A stretch of DNA of 50,042 bases from contig JAKLET010000029.1 of assembly GCA_022711595.1 (NCBI GenBank), forward strand, positions 1 to 50,042, read 5' to 3'. The position numbers were made by a program, and so were the translations under genes. This DNA comes from Deltaproteobacteria bacterium. GTDB lineage: Bacteria; Desulfobacterota; Syntrophorhabdia; Syntrophorhabdales; Syntrophorhabdaceae. Positions 29,874 through 43,882 of this stretch are shown here, piece after piece. Under the pieces are notes generated by a model. It had not been told where the DNA came from. It did no database searches and saw only the letters and a program-made list of their open reading frames with translations. How positions within the stretch are numbered: position 1 is the first letter of the stretch; each line of letters starts with the position of its first letter.

Positions 29874-31013
29874 ATGAGCATTTTTTTTATTACCTTCTTC
29901 ACGCTCTATTCAGTGCTTCACGCGTATGTGATGCTCAAGGCGTGGTATGCGTTTCGGTTCAGGTTTTCAACCGGCTGTGTGATCGCGGCCGTGTTCCTCA
30001 TTTTTCTTTTCGCACCTGTCATTGTCCGTTTTCTCGAGAACGGGGGTCACGAAACTACGGCGCGTTTAGCTGCCTATGCAGGTTATATCTGGATGGGTGC
30101 AGTTTTTTTCTTCTTTGCCGTTTCCCTGACTCTCGATATCGTGAGGTTTTTTGTCTATATTTTTTCACTGGTTATCAGATCGGGTATGCCCGGGTTTTTC
30201 CATTCCAATCTTCTTTTTTTTCTACTGCCCCTTGCCGCATCTGTGTTTGTCACCGCTTACGGTTTCTTTGAGGCCCAAAATGTCAGGACAGAAAGGATAC
30301 GTATAGAAACTAACAAACTGCCGGCAGGGATCGAAAGGCTTACCATCGTACAGGTGTCCGATGTCCATCTGGGCCTTGTTATCAGGGAAGACAGGCTTAA
30401 AAAGATCGTTCAGGCAATAAGGGAGGCCAATCCCCAGATCCTGGTATCCACGGGCGATCTCGTCGACGGGCAGATAAACGATCTTAACGGCCTCTACGAA
30501 ATGCTCGGCGGGATCAAGCCTCGATACGGCAAGTTTGCCATCATGGGCAACCACGAGTTCTATGCTGGAACGGATGTTTCCCTGGATTTCACGCAGAAGG
30601 CCGGTTTCAGGATGTTAAGAGGGGAATCGGTAACGATCGATGAGATGATCAATATTGCGGGGGTGGATGATATCGTTTCGGGAAGGCATGGCAACGATAC
30701 ATACAGGCAGGAGAGGGCGGCATTAAGCGGCCTTTCACCGGGGCTTTTCACAGTCCTGTTAAAGCACAGGCCCGTTGTCGACCCCGCATCGGCCAGAATA
30801 TTCGATCTCCAGCTGTCCGGACATACCCATAACGGGCAGATATTTCCCTTTACATACCTGACCCGCATTGCCTTTCCCATGTACGCAGGACTGCACAAAC
30901 TGGATGCGGGCCCGCTTCTGTACGTGAGCCGGGGCTCGGGAACCTGGGGCCCCCCGATACGTTTTCTCTCCCCTCCGGAAGTGACGGTGATTGAGATCGT
31001 GAGGACCCCATAG
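29874..31013 (+). CDS. Membrane-anchored calcineurin-like metallophosphoesterase
   Basis: 379 residues. About 130 N-terminal residues contain four to five hydrophobic segments. The catalytic domain then has the complete dimetal motif series: QVSDVHLG, STGDLVDG, MGNHEFYAG, a conserved LLKHRP, and SGHTHNGQIFP near the end. Similar YkuE/YaeI-type enzymes hydrolyse UDP-2,3-diacylglucosamine or other phosphoesters; the substrate here is unknown. The orientation of the catalytic domain (probably periplasmic, after the last helix) is not certain. Shine-Dalgarno AAGG 7 nt before ATG. Confidence 0.88.
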   Translation: MSIFFITFFTLYSVLHAYVMLKAWYAFRFRFSTGCVIAAVFLIFLFAPVIVRFLENGGHETTARLAAYAGYIWMGAVFFFFAVSLTLDIVRFFVYIFSLVIRSGMPGFFHSNLLFFLLPLAASVFVTAYGFFEAQNVRTERIRIETNKLPAGIERLTIVQVSDVHLGLVIREDRLKKIVQAIREANPQILVSTGDLVDGQINDLNGLYEMLGGIKPRYGKFAIMGNHEFYAGTDVSLDFTQKAGFRMLRGESVTIDEMINIAGVDDIVSGRHGNDTYRQERAALSGLSPGLFTVLLKHRPVVDPASARIFDLQLSGHTHNGQIFPFTYLTRIAFPMYAGLHKLDAGPLLYVSRGSGTWGPPIRFLSPPEVTVIEIVRTP

Positions 31014-31176: not shown

Positions 31177-34100
31177 ATGGAAAAGATAGAAATGGAACAC
31201 TGGCGCTCGAGCGCCCTTGAGATAAACCTTGAACGAACGAAAGCGATCGTCGAGATACCCGAGAAATACCGGATACTCATGGAGGTGGTACAGAAGCATT
31301 ACGGCGTTCTCAAGCGCGTCGAAGACCTTCTCCTCGAATTAAACCATCCCTACGTCAACTGGGAATATGTTTTGACACAGCTCAAAAGCCTTTCCATCGG
31401 TGATTTCTACGATTTCAACCGCCACGAAAGGGGCCTCGATGCCTTGAAGCTCCTTGCCGGCATATACATGGACATCGTTTCTTCCGCTCGTGACGAGAGG
31501 GTGCAGGACAGCGCCGCCAGGTACCTTTTTGAATTTATCAATACCGTTGTCGGTAAAAGCGGAGACAGCCTGGAAAGGAACATGGGCCTTGTTTTTTTTG
31601 TTTTTACTTCGCTCCTTTCCTTCACGAAGAGTGATATCCCCCATCCATTCCTGAAAAAATCATCGACATACCTGAAGGTCACCCTGGACCTGCTCAGGGA
31701 AAAGGGCCGAGCAATTGACGGCGAAGAGATCAAAGACCTTTTTCATGTTATATTTCGCGAGACTTACAGCTTCTGGATGACCCAGCCCGACCCGACGCTG
31801 TGGTATGAGACCGAAGGAGAGGACGGTGAAGGCCGCTCGGGGTTCCAAAAGATAGTCGGTCCTTTGGGCCATGTCCATATAAAGGAGCTCATGGACAGGC
31901 TTGACGCTCTCCGTCCGCGCGTCGTCTCGGGCACGGAAGGCGGGATCCATCTCTATCTTGATTTGCCCGACTATTTCCAGATCGTCAACGGATACCTGCT
32001 GGTGGCCGATGAGCTTGAAAGGTCCCCGGTCTTTTCGGGTCGAAGCTATCTGGTCAAACTCGATTTCCTCTTTCATGTCATGAATGTGCCGGGCCTTGGA
32101 GACATTCACAGCTCCGGCCTGATAGAGATCAACCGTTGCCTGGGGAAGGTTTTCCAGGAGACCGGCGGGCAGGACCTTCACGAGTTCGTCAGGAAGGTCT
32201 TCCAGTCCATGAAGAAGACGGTCGGCAGAAGCCGTTATCAGTCCAAGATCATCGACTGTATCACGACCCTTGCCAAGGGTGTCTTCGATCAGAACAACCA
32301 TCCGCTGGTGGACGCCTTTGTTGAAGAACTGATCCGTTTTGGTTTCCAGTATCCGGAGATCATCGGCTCCACCGCCGAATGGCAGGTCAAGGCCAATCCT
32401 TCCCATATAGAGAATGTCCGGTCATGGCTCGAGATCATCTCTTTCAAGTCAAGATGGACGAAAAGGCTCCTGTCCGCCCTCATCATTAACCTGAAACTGA
32501 AAGGGGTGTTCGTCAGGGACACCGACCTTTTCCAGAAGGACATCTCATCGCTGCTCAATACAGATATAACGCCTTCGTATAACCTTACGAAACAGCTGCT
32601 TCGGCTTTTCCCCATCTTTTTTACGGAGATAGGAGCCGAAGGCGAACTCAGGGATACATCGACGAATGTGGATGAGCTGACTTCCAGGGGCGACAAGCTC
32701 ATATTTTTCCTGAGGAAGCAGTCCCATGTAGAAAGCAACAGCCTGCTCGTTCCCTTCACTGAGGACATCTTCCGCTACTGGGCAACGGGCGACAGGTCCT
32801 TCATAAAAAAGCATCTCCCCGAGGAGGTCTTCGAGCAGGTCGCGAATGAGGGGGAGTATTTCGACGATCTCCATGCCGTTTTTAAAAACCTTCTTCCCCG
32901 TGTCAAGAACGATCCGAGGAATTTTCTGGAATGGGACAATGCCAGGATATCAAAAGAAGTCAAAGGGGTACGCAAGATCAGCGAAAGGGAGCGTGAACGG
33001 GCAAGGCTCATCCTCAGATACTACCAGCTCATATATAAAAAATACAATCATCAGCACATCGACCTCATAAGGGACCTTGAACTTTCGTGTATGATCGAGG
33101 TTCCGAAAATACGGTCCCTCAAGAGGGCGCTGGACAGAAAAGACTATTATACCGCTATCTCCGCTACTCTCGACATCCTCGAAAAATTGAAAGAAAAGAT
33201 CCTGTCGCCCGTCAAAACAGAATATTTCGAGAATATCTATCACAAAAGGCATATCGCCGCCGGCATCCCTTCAATGTACGGCACATACCGGGAAGAGAAG
33301 TTCGAGGCCATGGGACTTACCTTCAGCCTTGAAAACCTTGCCGCAATGCTCTTTGAAAAACTTGTGGAATCATTGAATCTGAAGTTTATCACCAAGAGCA
33401 CCCTCATGAAGATCCATGAATACCTCTGGCTCTACGTGAGGGCCCTTGACCTCGACGGCATCGCGACGGAGGGCCTTGTCTCGAAGATGCGGTATATAAC
33501 ATCGGCCCTCCAGATACGGCAGTTTTCCATTGACCAGTACATCGATATATTCCAGTTCATCTCCAAGGGTATCCAGGACATTATCCGCGATTATTATATC
33601 GACGCACACAGCATTAACCTGCCCATTATTATCGGGCAGATGATGGATTCGGAAGACGGAAATGCAAGTTTACAGGCTGATGGCCGCAGCAGGCAGGAGA
33701 TCATCTACAGGTACTCGGAGAACTTCATACGTTCCATGATCGCCCACGCCTTCGGCCTCCAGGTGTTCGACAATTTTGTGAACTCTGTTGTCAGGGCCCT
33801 CAGCCAGGAGCTTGAGAAGTTCAAGGACAACAAACAGATCCTAAACCTTGTTATGGCCTATATCCCGGAGCTGGCCATATCACCGATCTACAAGAAGAAA
33901 AAAGATATCGATAACCAGGTGCTGCTGGGAAACAAGGGTTATTTCCTTAAAGAACTGGCCTCACTTTCCTTTCCTGTACCGCCGGGCTTTATCATAACGA
34001 CGGAGGTTTTCAGGGGATACGAGGCGGTGATCGGCTACAAGTACATCTTCAAGGACCTCAGCCTGAGGATATATAATGAGATACAGGCCCTTGAGCACAC

Positions 34101-35406
34101 AACGGGAAAAAAATTCGGCAACCCGCGCAACCCGCTTTTGCTTTCGGTCAGAAGCGGTGCCACCATCTCGCTTCCGGGAATGATGCATTCCTTCCTGAAC
34201 GTGGGTCTGAACGAAACCATAGCGGACGGCCTGGCCAGAAAGAGCGATTTCAAGTGGGCTGCCTGGGATTCGTACAGGAGGTTTCTGCAGACATGGGGTA
34301 TGTTCCAGGGCCTTGAAAGGAACATCTTCGACGAGATAATGACCGGTTTCAAATCCCGTCATAACGTGTCGAAAAAGATAGAATTCGGTCCCGACCAGAT
34401 GAGAGAGATGGCGCTTGCCTACAGACAGGCGATGGAGGACCGCGGGGTCTTGATAAACAATGACCCTTACGAACAGCTGCAGCAGGCGATCCTCCTGGTG
34501 TTTGCATCCTGGTATTCCCAGCAGGCACGCATATACCGTCATCAGATGCACGTTTCCGATGAATGGGGGACGGCGGTCATTGTCCAGGCCATGGTATTCG
34601 GGAACCTCAACGAAAACTCGGGGTCCGGCGTGATCTTCACCCGTGACCCGAAAGGGCCTTCCCAGAATGTCACACTTTACGGTGATTTTATTTTCGGCGT
34701 ACAGGGCGACGACATAGTGTCCGGGCTTGTGGAGACATATCCCATATCGGAGAAGCAAAGGGTATCTGAAAAGAGGCAGTCGCTGATATCTCTCGAGCAG
34801 CGCTTCCCTGAAATATACGGGGAACTGGTGAGGATCGCCGAGTTCCTCATTTATGAGAAACGCTTTAACCATCAGGAAATAGAGTTCACTTTCGAGAACG
34901 ATACGCCGAAAGGGCTCTACATCCTCCAAACGCGGGACATGGTACAGAGGGGCGCGGGTAAAGTGAGGACATTCCATGACAGCCCCGAGCTTGAAGGGTC
35001 GCTCCTTGGCATCGGGATAGGAGTGAGCGGCGGTGCCCTGTCAGGACGCGTAGTTTACTCGGAAGAAGAGATCGAGCGCTACCACAGGGAGGAAGGCGAT
35101 GTGCCCCTTATCCTCATAAGGCCCGATACGGTGCCCGACGATGTGGGCATCATTCTCAAGGTGGAGGGTATACTGACCGCCCGAGGCGGCGGCACCTCTC
35201 ATGCCGCGGTGACGATACCCCAGCTCAACAAGGTGGGGGTTGTTGGGTTCAGCAAGCTCCATGTCTTCGAGAATGAGGCATACAGCATCTGCGAAGGAAA
35301 GGTCATCAGGGGAGGGGACTTTATCAGCATCGATGGCTGGACCGGTGCGGTATACCACGGCAAACATGCCATAGAAGCGGAAGAATCATACAAAATAACC
35401 CTCTGA
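31177..35406 (+). CDS. Large PPDK/PEP-synthase-like phosphotransferase with ~900-residue novel N-terminal region
   Basis: 1409 residues. About 910 N-terminal residues are mostly helical, soluble, and match nothing I recognise. From about 915 comes a PPDK-type ATP-grasp: GNKGYFLKELASLSFPVPPGF, then LLSVRSGATISLPGMM (about 987-1002), SGSGVIFTRDPKGP and GVQGDDIVSG. From about 1290 is a phosphohistidine swivel domain with catalytic His1342 in RGGGTSHAA. The C-terminal PEP/pyruvate TIM barrel that should follow is missing; the protein ends about 67 residues after the histidine. So ATP would phosphorylate His1342, but the final acceptor is not given by a known domain. Similar long proteins exist in Desulfobacterota annotated only as PEP/pyruvate-binding. 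Start ATG 31177 without a Shine-Dalgarno. Confidence 0.85.
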   Translation: MEKIEMEHWRSSALEINLERTKAIVEIPEKYRILMEVVQKHYGVLKRVEDLLLELNHPYVNWEYVLTQLKSLSIGDFYDFNRHERGLDALKLLAGIYMDIVSSARDERVQDSAARYLFEFINTVVGKSGDSLERNMGLVFFVFTSLLSFTKSDIPHPFLKKSSTYLKVTLDLLREKGRAIDGEEIKDLFHVIFRETYSFWMTQPDPTLWYETEGEDGEGRSGFQKIVGPLGHVHIKELMDRLDALRPRVVSGTEGGIHLYLDLPDYFQIVNGYLLVADELERSPVFSGRSYLVKLDFLFHVMNVPGLGDIHSSGLIEINRCLGKVFQETGGQDLHEFVRKVFQSMKKTVGRSRYQSKIIDCITTLAKGVFDQNNHPLVDAFVEELIRFGFQYPEIIGSTAEWQVKANPSHIENVRSWLEIISFKSRWTKRLLSALIINLKLKGVFVRDTDLFQKDISSLLNTDITPSYNLTKQLLRLFPIFFTEIGAEGELRDTSTNVDELTSRGDKLIFFLRKQSHVESNSLLVPFTEDIFRYWATGDRSFIKKHLPEEVFEQVANEGEYFDDLHAVFKNLLPRVKNDPRNFLEWDNARISKEVKGVRKISERERERARLILRYYQLIYKKYNHQHIDLIRDLELSCMIEVPKIRSLKRALDRKDYYTAISATLDILEKLKEKILSPVKTEYFENIYHKRHIAAGIPSMYGTYREEKFEAMGLTFSLENLAAMLFEKLVESLNLKFITKSTLMKIHEYLWLYVRALDLDGIATEGLVSKMRYITSALQIRQFSIDQYIDIFQFISKGIQDIIRDYYIDAHSINLPIIIGQMMDSEDGNASLQADGRSRQEIIYRYSENFIRSMIAHAFGLQVFDNFVNSVVRALSQELEKFKDNKQILNLVMAYIPELAISPIYKKKKDIDNQVLLGNKGYFLKELASLSFPVPPGFIITTEVFRGYEAVIGYKYIFKDLSLRIYNEIQALEHTTGKKFGNPRNPLLLSVRSGATISLPGMMHSFLNVGLNETIADGLARKSDFKWAAWDSYRRFLQTWGMFQGLERNIFDEIMTGFKSRHNVSKKIEFGPDQMREMALAYRQAMEDRGVLINNDPYEQLQQAILLVFASWYSQQARIYRHQMHVSDEWGTAVIVQAMVFGNLNENSGSGVIFTRDPKGPSQNVTLYGDFIFGVQGDDIVSGLVETYPISEKQRVSEKRQSLISLEQRFPEIYGELVRIAEFLIYEKRFNHQEIEFTFENDTPKGLYILQTRDMVQRGAGKVRTFHDSPELEGSLLGIGIGVSGGALSGRVVYSEEEIERYHREEGDVPLILIRPDTVPDDVGIILKVEGILTARGGGTSHAAVTIPQLNKVGVVGFSKLHVFENEAYSICEGKVIRGGDFISIDGWTGAVYHGKHAIEAEESYKITL

Positions 35407-35410
35407 AAGA

Positions 35411-35594
35411 CTGTTTCAGCTGTTTCAACAGGTTCAACCGTTTCAATGGAAAAACTCCCATAAAAAAGTGATTTAATATGGTTCTTAATGGTAAGTAAAT
35501 GAATAAAAAACCAGCCCCGAAGTGCCAAGATTCAGGGCTGGTATCTTCTTTTGCCTTTACGGTTGAAACTGTTGAAACAGCTGAAACGTTTGAA
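35411..35594. repeat. Paired 9-bp-period arrays forming a 27-bp inverted repeat
   Basis: Left array, GTTTCA/GGTTCA cores at 35413, 35422, 35431 and 35440. Right array, TTGAA/CTGAA cores at 35563, 35572, 35581 and 35590. Positions 35413-35439 and 35561-35587 are reverse complements with 26 of 27 bases matching. The pair encloses a terminator hairpin between converging genes. Confidence 0.9.
35511..35551. terminator. Bidirectional terminator between the dikinase-like gene and gap
   Basis: CCAGCCC-c-GAA ... TTC-a-GGGCTGG, preceded by AAAAAA (a T run on the minus strand for gap) and followed by TATCTTCTTTT on the plus strand. Confidence 0.75.
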
Positions 35595-35603
35595 ACTTGT
35601 ATC

Positions 35604-36881
35604 TCAAGCCATGCTCTTGTGTATGTAAGTTGTCAGGTCACCCATCCTGTTGGTGTAGCTCCCATATTCATTGTCATACCAGCCGAATATCTTGGCATGT
35701 ACGACAGGCACCCTCATGGTCCCTTTGGGAAGGGTCTTCAGGAGGTTTTCGGGAACGTTGGGGATCCCTGCAAGGTCCACATCGATAAAGGCCGTTCTCG
35801 TGTGATTGAATTGGCCTTCTATAACGATCGCGGCATCCGTTCCGATAAGATCCGTCGACACGTTCTGCTCCATCGTGAAGATCACCAGGTGTTCCGGGTC
35901 ATTTCCCGCTGCGTTCCGGTATATCTCGTTGAGCATCTTCGTGGTGAGGGGCTCTTTTTTACCATCGCTGCCCGTACGGGTCTGAAAGGTGAGGTTGAGG
36001 ACGATCAACGATTCGGTGTTCGTGGGGATACGGATCGAATCGGCCATAAATCCGATGTCCTTTACCTCGGGGATGACCTGGATGAGGGCCGCGGCAGCGT
36101 TTGTAGAGGTGAGGATGATATTGTTGAGGATGCTCCTGTTCTTCCTCATGTCCTTTTCCCCTGCCTTAGGTGTCTTGTCAAGGACGCTCTGTGAATTTGT
36201 AACCGCGTGGACCGTCGACATGGAAGCCGTAAGTATCCTGCTCGTTGCTTCATTGTTGAGCAGAGGCTTGACCATGTGGGCAAGTCCGGTGGTCGTGCAT
36301 GACGCGGCTGAGACGATCTTGTGCTTCTTGTAATCGAAGGCTGTGTGGTTGATGCCGTAGATCAGCGTTATCGCATCGTCCGGGATGGACATGGACTTGT
36401 TCTTCAATTTAAAGGCCGAAGAATTGATGGCGACTTTGGCGCCGCTCGCGAGGTGGCCTTTTATGGACCCGCCTTTATCGTCGGTCGCGATGGTAGGGTC
36501 CTGAAACTTGCCCGTACATTCGACGACGATGTCCACTCCGTGATCGCGCCAGGCGATCTCCGCCGGGTTCCTCGCCTCGCGCAGGATCGTTACCGGTATC
36601 CCGTCGATCATGAGCTTACCTTTTTTTTCGTCTACGATCTCTATGATCCTTTTCGATTTGATGCCGTAGAGAAAGCGATGGATGCTTCCATAAGTGGCAT
36701 CTTTTTCAATGATCTGTGCAATTGCGGGGAGACCGTTGCCCACGTCTCTTCCAAGGTTTACAACGATCTCCTTAAAGTATTTTCGCCCGACATGGTGCCA
36801 GAGTGTCAACTTTCCTATTCTTCCCAGGCTGTTTATCCCGAGAACAGGGTTTTTGTTTTCAAATACTTCAACTTTACCCAT
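35604..36881 (-). CDS. gap: Glyceraldehyde-3-phosphate dehydrogenase (phosphorylating), long form
   Basis: 425 residues, about 90 longer than typical GapA. Start ATG 36881 with GAGGAGG. NAD-binding GINSLGRIGKLTLWHHV, catalytic Cys195 in SAASCTTTGLAH with partner His225 in MSTVHAVTNS, and the C-terminal WYDNEYGSYTNRMGDL are all present, so it should be active. The extra length lies in an extended N-terminus, the region around 44-75, a loop near 125-145, and an insertion around 300-330 (TFQTRTGSDGKKEP). It makes 1,3-bisphosphoglycerate, complementing the GapN at 1434-3005. Convergent with the dikinase-like gene. Confidence 0.93.
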   Translation of the reverse strand: MGKVEVFENKNPVLGINSLGRIGKLTLWHHVGRKYFKEIVVNLGRDVGNGLPAIAQIIEKDATYGSIHRFLYGIKSKRIIEIVDEKKGKLMIDGIPVTILREARNPAEIAWRDHGVDIVVECTGKFQDPTIATDDKGGSIKGHLASGAKVAINSSAFKLKNKSMSIPDDAITLIYGINHTAFDYKKHKIVSAASCTTTGLAHMVKPLLNNEATSRILTASMSTVHAVTNSQSVLDKTPKAGEKDMRKNRSILNNIILTSTNAAAALIQVIPEVKDIGFMADSIRIPTNTESLIVLNLTFQTRTGSDGKKEPLTTKMLNEIYRNAAGNDPEHLVIFTMEQNVSTDLIGTDAAIVIEGQFNHTRTAFIDVDLAGIPNVPENLLKTLPKGTMRVPVVHAKIFGWYDNEYGSYTNRMGDLTTYIHKSMA

Positions 36882-43840: not shown

Positions 43841-43882
43841 AAAAGGTTTCAACCGTTTCAACTGTTTTAGCGTTTCAAGCGA
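43841..43882. repeat. 9-bp-period array after cheV
   Basis: GTTTC, GTTTC, GTTTT, GTTTC at 43846, 43855, 43864 and 43872 (9, 9, 8 bp apart), starting a few bases after the stop codon and just before the terminator. Confidence 0.75.

Follow-up and report, generated by a model that had tools for sequence, protein, structure and literature searches.

Within the 50,042 nucleotides of contig JAKLET010000029.1 (assembly GCA_022711595.1) from a Deltaproteobacteria bacterium of the Syntrophorhabdaceae, here called the window, lies a gene for a 1409-residue protein that looks like an undescribed relative of PPDK in which a large helical part has replaced the pyruvate-binding part. This protein, referred to here as the dikinase, is encoded beside gapL, a divergent GAPDH, and the two are well supported as working together as one functional unit. 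With slightly less than even confidence, the dikinase is proposed to be a 3-phosphoglycerate dikinase that feeds gapL, catalyzing the reaction 3-phosphoglycerate + ATP + phosphate (Pi) <-> 1,3-bisphosphoglycerate + AMP + pyrophosphate (PPi) by way of His1342. Such an acyl-phosphate exchange would best explain why half of a PPDK is joined to a new acceptor part and paired, in a glycolytic operon, with an obligate GAPDH. The pair is arranged in the window as follows:

31177..35406, forward strand: dikinase gene, PPDK-like without the PEP/pyruvate barrel, 1409 amino acids.
31177..33891, forward strand: N-terminal part, residues 1-905, all-helical and probably acceptor-binding (AlphaFold model, pLDDT 86; fold matches to alpha-solenoids only).
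32305..32736, forward strand: most conserved N-terminal segment, residues 377-520 (31.9 invariant residues per 100, versus 26.1 in the ATP-grasp part).
33217..33336, forward strand: β-hairpin KRHIAAGIPSMYG, residues 681-720, invariant and modeled at low confidence, a possible substrate lid from its conservation and predicted structure.
33913..34980, forward strand: PPDK-type ATP-grasp, residues 913-1268, with K920, R992, E1236, Q1251 and R1253 (Pfam, PDB match, alignment and model).
34987..35367, forward strand: swivel phosphohistidine domain, residues 1271-1397, with the His1342 codon at 35200-35202 (equivalent to PPDK His455).
35604..36881, reverse strand: gapL, a divergent long GAPDH of 425 amino acids, obligate partner by neighborhood and co-occurrence.

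The catalytic half of the dikinase closely follows that of PPDK. The gene is a single unbroken ATG-to-stop frame in which Pfam identifies PPDK_N at residues 961-1264 (E 6e-30) and the PEP-utilizers mobile domain at 1311-1390 (E 5e-12), with neither the PEP/pyruvate barrel (PF02896) nor any third domain matched across the full 1409 residues; a PHROGs search returned a sole match, to a kinase family across the ATP-grasp. The original prediction, made from the letters of the DNA and their translations, had described just such a frame without the PEP/pyruvate domain, and this description holds. The ATP-grasp and His1342 domain that it delineated are likewise present, although the end that it gave to the ATP-grasp, near residue 1290, is corrected here to limits of approximately 913-1268, followed by the His domain at 1271-1397. 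A phmmer search of the PDB aligned residues 913-1402 to PPDK residues 14-512 (E 1e-74), the best matches all being PPDKs, and a model of residues 210-1409 (pLDDT 85) superposes on PPDK residues 2-524 with Z 40.9 and a root-mean-square deviation (rmsd) of 2.4 Å over 486 residues. The best NCBIfam model is that of PPDK (TIGR01828, E 7e-114), at 381.6 bits and thus below its curated equivalog cut-off of 843.45, and since the PEP-synthase model TIGR01418 reaches E 5e-19, the ATP-grasp is taken to be PPDK-like, using phosphate, rather than PEP-synthase-like.

By a residue mapping made by hand from the alignment, K22, R92, E323, Q335, R337, T453 and H455 of PPDK correspond to K920, R992, E1236, Q1251, R1253, T1340 and H1342 of the dikinase, respectively. 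Across 49 diverse family members, which reach down to approximately 36% identity, all of these are invariant apart from T1340, which is nearly so. The ATP-grasp and His1342 had been predicted to look functional, with poor conservation of the His among homologues named as grounds for doubt; every PPDK catalytic residue checked is kept and His1342 is retained by all 49 aligned sequences, leaving the ATP site and the His intact.

Compared with PPDK (TIGR01828; 1kbl), the dikinase presents the ATP-grasp and swivel His domain in the same order at 31-34% identity, and it keeps the ATP/Pi-site residues checked and the phosphorylated His of the TSHAA motif. It differs in stopping near the equivalent of PPDK residue 520 of 874, without the C-terminal barrel, and in bearing approximately 905 extra N-terminal residues. 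With the barrel absent and the TIGR01828 score under the cut-off, the dikinase is not a PPDK. Other enzymes have made comparable departures from this template. VadK (Rv1127c) from Mycobacterium tuberculosis is derived from PPDK, has lost the barrel, autophosphorylates on the equivalent His and is proposed to act on the methylcitrate cycle (PMC13400623); it thus shares with the dikinase an ATP-grasp and His domain without a barrel and an equivalent of His1342, but is approximately 50 kDa, without the large N-terminal part, and is tied to the methylcitrate cycle rather than to a GAPDH. Rifampin phosphotransferase (RPH) applies the logic of a swivelling dikinase and substitutes a different acceptor domain for the barrel (PMC4844700). 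This acceptor domain sits between the ATP-grasp and His domain, which are contiguous in the dikinase, and the difference in domain order sets the dikinase apart from RPH; the RPH ATP-grasp matches the dikinase model more weakly (Z 25), and the dikinase scores 39 bits, against 999, on NF041857. The phenol-type kinases PpsAB, CreHI and HpeHI use the same phosphohistidine relay on a non-pyruvate acceptor (PMC12167813), but are two-component, RPH-type enzymes with aromatic substrates. Glucan and phosphoglucan water dikinases place the His domain before the ATP-grasp and carry starch-binding modules, whereas the dikinase has the ATP-grasp first and no carbohydrate-binding module among its Pfam matches, so that it is not a glucan water dikinase either. 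The dikinase probably works like a swivelling dikinase, yet neither its N-terminal part nor its GAPDH partner is found in VadK, RPH, PpsAB, CreHI or HpeHI. The literature searched, which largely excludes subscription papers, holds no description of the dikinase family, of the dikinase-gapL pair or of a phosphoglycerate dikinase activity, the sole text match for "phosphoglycerate dikinase" being a rice seed proteomics paper. The suggestion that this may be an undescribed dikinase is consistent with this, and with its place outside the PPDK, RPH and glucan water dikinase classes.

The absence of the barrel is a trait of the family rather than a local truncation, as all full-length copies stop after the His domain. 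The order of helical part, ATP-grasp and His domain recurs in every full-length relative found, in approximately 80 loci from at least seven bacterial groups. A scan of public genomes, with one phylum sampled in depth and metagenome bins in the majority, recovered 79 dikinase loci, mostly full length, from Syntrophorhabdales, Syntrophaceae/Smithella, Geobacteraceae, Clostridia/Bacillota, Bacteroidales, Cloacimonadota, Gemmatimonadetes and Kapaibacterium; the genome of the window is Syntrophorhabdus-like, its closest named relatives being Syntrophorhabdus metagenome bins at approximately 80% identity. The 87 full-length copies (some redundant) are open frames of approximately 1330-1570 residues that all end just past the His domain, and PF02896 is absent from the dikinase of the window and from every full-length homologue. 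A broken or truncated, functionless PPDK, or a PPDK with its barrel in trans, would account for the missing PF02896 but is barely credible, being refuted by the conservation of an intact, full-length protein with invariant catalytic residues in approximately 80 loci over many groups. Moreover, a complete PPDK is encoded in the genome of the window, where the one other PF02896 match is a 598-residue enzyme-I-like open reading frame; no unassigned barrel is left to act in trans, and this arrangement is rejected. Several metagenome copies (G032 C305/C334, L026, L080 and L082) are interrupted by contig ends or in-frame stops that are probably assembly errors. One complete genome (L137:6933-11097; G113 C1 682935-687100) encodes the dikinase as two overlapping frames of 651 and 794 amino acids, through a frameshift or a natural split, upstream of an intact gapL.

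Instead of a barrel, the dikinase features an N-terminal part that AlphaFold predicts, over residues 1-930, as approximately 46 helices and two short β-hairpins (mean pLDDT 86). Residues 1-910 have no sequence match in Pfam, NCBIfam or PDB, in agreement with the approximately 900 residues described earlier as unknown, and no internal sequence repeat was found within the N-terminal part. Foldseek and VIA-align, by a fold search that handles long solenoids poorly, returned only alpha-solenoids such as CRM1 and importins (TM approximately 0.2, Z approximately 10, large rmsd); with the TM low and the rmsd large, these matches are read as generic helical-repeat similarity and no specific fold is assigned. 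The possibility raised by the original prediction that a PEP/pyruvate barrel is folded into this region is contradicted by a structure prediction and fold search that gave helical, solenoid-like results alone. Conservation is strikingly uneven, with 3 invariant residues per 100 over residues 1-376, but 32 over 377-520 and 27 over 641-730, compared to 26 in the ATP-grasp part. The invariants of segment 377-520 comprise H410, R415, D448, K472, R476, GAEGELR at 486-492, R513, K514 and H517, and Lys, Arg, His, Asp and Glu are abundant in both blocks, making them a candidate phosphate-ligand-type site. As two blocks are conserved like the ATP-grasp core, in the way expected where a ligand binds or catalysis takes place, the N-terminal part is probably the acceptor-binding domain, a role suggested for it from the start, as an alternative to regulation, and now strengthened by this second conserved site. 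A likeness between the invariant hairpin GIPSMYG and the PPDK loop SLPGMM was rejected as no better than that of shuffled sequences.

The same region invites a regulatory explanation, by which the dikinase, autophosphorylated on His1342, would phosphorylate or in some other way switch gapL or another glycolytic enzyme while the solenoid binds the target protein. Strict pairing with a single enzyme would suit such a role, as would fold matches that are all alpha-solenoids, many of them protein-binding, and a precedent exists in the barrel-less VadK, which autophosphorylates and interacts with enzymes of a neighboring pathway (PMC13400623). These solenoid matches are weak, however, and the conservation of two N-terminal segments resembles that of an active site while residues 1-376 evolve fast, so that a regulatory function is unlikely.

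The new finding is the partnership with gapL. In the first set of loci, a gapL of 412-425 residues adjoins the dikinase wherever the contig extends far enough, with few exceptions. The two genes are convergent in Syntrophorhabdales and Syntrophaceae. In Geobacteraceae, Clostridia, Bacteroidales and Cloacimonadota they point the same way, with gapL usually 5 to 230 bp downstream of the dikinase; adjacency is kept despite this switch of orientation between lineages. Among 20 dikinase genomes searched whole, 19 encode gapL at 50-75% identity, including cases in which the genes are not adjacent. In 247 genomes of the phylum, each at least 90% complete, gapL and the N-terminal part of the dikinase occur in the same 75 and are both missing from the other 172, with zero exceptions (Fisher p 3e-65, treating genomes as independent and ignoring shared ancestry). 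Of the 75 carriers, 47 have the two genes side by side on one strand and 11 have them side by side on opposite strands; in the remaining 17 they are far apart or on different contigs. The strength of the co-occurrence lies in its zero exceptions over many families and in a link that persists when the genes lie apart. Dikinase and gapL distances correlate with r 0.98, but 0.51 among distant pairs, mostly reflecting shared phylogeny, and an independent count for Bacteroidota was impossible because gapL is limited to the starting genome of 218. The neighboring GAPDH, first remarked upon for lying next to the dikinase, matters more than could be told from one locus, and a check of co-occurring genes yields gapL, canonical gap, pgk and tpi as the conserved partners.

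The gapL protein is approximately 35% identical to canonical GAPDH and forms a separate clade, scoring 276 bits (window) and 332 and 340 bits (relatives) on TIGR01534, below the equivalog cut-off of 367. It keeps the catalytic Cys195 and His225 along with Thr196, Thr228, Thr260 and Arg284 of both phosphate sites. The NAD-selecting Val-Asn-Asp is replaced by Asn-x-Gly-Arg with the Gly and Arg invariant; a GAPDH that has lost this Asp and has an Arg close by tends to use NADP(H), and NADP(H) is accordingly the likely cofactor of gapL by its residues. The complete genome G078 has gapL as its sole type I GAPDH match, which suggests that gapL can act as a true GAPDH. There it adjoins the dikinase, and rapZ, nusB and cytidylate kinase genes belong to the same cluster (L138). 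G113 and G243 likewise show a single type I GAPDH match.

The same anatomy and genomic evidence would also fit another small acceptor of the triose node, such as glycerate, glyceraldehyde, dihydroxyacetone or another phosphorylated acid, with a product used or made by gapL, and both RPH and the phenol kinases demonstrate how readily this chassis changes its acceptor (PMC4844700; PMC12167813). This alternative carries real weight but is somewhat improbable: as gapL retains, at both phosphate sites, the residues of a normal phosphorylating GAPDH, its partner metabolite is probably 1,3-bisphosphoglycerate or glyceraldehyde-3-phosphate, and no other conserved neighbor among the loci examined supplies an alternative substrate.

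In many genomes the surrounding genes are those of the same metabolic node. At least 33 of the 75 carriers have a canonical gap or pgk no more than 1.5 kb away from the dikinase or from gapL, and in loci L131-L136 a single run comprises canonical gap, the dikinase, gapL and pgk, the next gene being triosephosphate isomerase in both loci tested; in L134 gap comes after gapL, and the gapL of L135 was taken from the phylum genome search rather than from the list of open reading frames of the locus. The genome of the window has canonical gap and pgk side by side, elsewhere. PGK and type I GAPDH share operons with the dikinase as well as the metabolites proposed for it, although PGK has an unrelated fold and works with ADP/ATP in one step. 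The original prediction had also considered a phosphorylated sugar, glucan or protein as the target in view of the GAPDH next to the dikinase and a glycogen phosphorylase gene 2.6 kb farther. Glycogen phosphorylase is near the dikinase in 3 of approximately 80 loci, those of the window and two close relatives; the glycogen or glucan idea thus finds no support and a glycogen link is rejected, the conserved partners being those of the triose node; a protein target is less likely.

In the 3-phosphoglycerate dikinase reading, a swivelling enzyme derived from PPDK would thus act at the node of glyceraldehyde-3-phosphate, 1,3-bisphosphoglycerate and 3-phosphoglycerate. The ATP-grasp would charge His1342 with a phosphoryl group at the expense of ATP and Pi, giving off AMP and PPi; this is the half-reaction of PPDK, suggested by the completely conserved site. 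The His domain would then swing to the N-terminal helical part holding 3-phosphoglycerate and pass the phosphoryl group to its carboxylate, and the resulting 1,3-bisphosphoglycerate would be handed, perhaps by physical channelling, to gapL for reduction to glyceraldehyde-3-phosphate, probably with NADPH. 1,3-Bisphosphoglycerate is less energy-rich than PEP, which would make this reaction easier than that of PPDK, and a dikinase route to it would be more favorable than PGK run backwards, energetics that would suit anaerobes with little energy. The outcome would be a second, AMP- and PPi-forming route beside gap and pgk, pulled by hydrolysis of PPi and fitting gluconeogenesis in such organisms. 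The wider claim of a new gluconeogenic bypass of PGK and GAPDH in several bacterial groups, consisting of a "3-phosphoglycerate, phosphate dikinase" with an undescribed acceptor domain and a dedicated NADPH-type GAPDH, is tentative and to be met with rather more doubt than belief.

Several observations weigh against this proposal. Canonical pgk is kept in all carriers except G200, a fragmented assembly, such that the dikinase is no substitute for PGK and its role as a PGK replacement is rejected. No fold or sequence match in Pfam, NCBIfam, PDB or Foldseek points to an acceptor, and an acceptor part of approximately 900 residues far exceeds the size needed to bind 3-phosphoglycerate. The genome-wide co-occurrence arises partly from shared ancestry, and one carrier of another group (G049) shows no gapL, its contig ending just past the dikinase gene. 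The direction of flux might also be reversed, with gapL oxidizing glyceraldehyde-3-phosphate and the acyl phosphate of 1,3-bisphosphoglycerate recharging His1342 so that AMP and PPi are converted to ATP, in a glycolysis that saves PPi. The reversibility of PPDK reactions, the shared anatomy and the glycolytic operons would all permit this catabolic use, and sequence cannot tell direction, but the predicted NADP(H) preference of gapL and the retention of gap and pgk favor biosynthesis and render it quite improbable.

The conversions that link triose phosphate and 3-phosphoglycerate in glycolysis and gluconeogenesis are regarded as nearly fully catalogued. That syntrophs, Geobacter relatives and other anaerobes have an obligate dikinase-gapL pair in their gap-pgk-tpi operons implies that a reaction or control step has gone undescribed there. 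If 1,3-bisphosphoglycerate is indeed formed at the cost of two high-energy bonds, this would explain uphill carbon flow into sugars near the energy limit. The family combines the phosphohistidine swivel of PPDK with what is probably an acceptor part of a new kind, and the label "PEP/pyruvate-binding protein" on such genes would mislead.

Two further elements border the dikinase gene in the window. Upstream, at 29874-31010 on the forward strand, a 379-residue open reading frame, by eye a putative membrane-anchored metallophosphoesterase, is common to ten loci of close relatives and not found elsewhere. Between the convergent dikinase and gapL genes, at 35412-35596, lies a GTTGAAACN repeat with 9-base spacing and two inverted arms, which flank a hairpin (ACCAGCCC...GGGCTGGT; RNA fold z-score -7.3). 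The GTTGAAACN pattern has 8 observed matches against 0.03 expected, two of them at 43846-43869.

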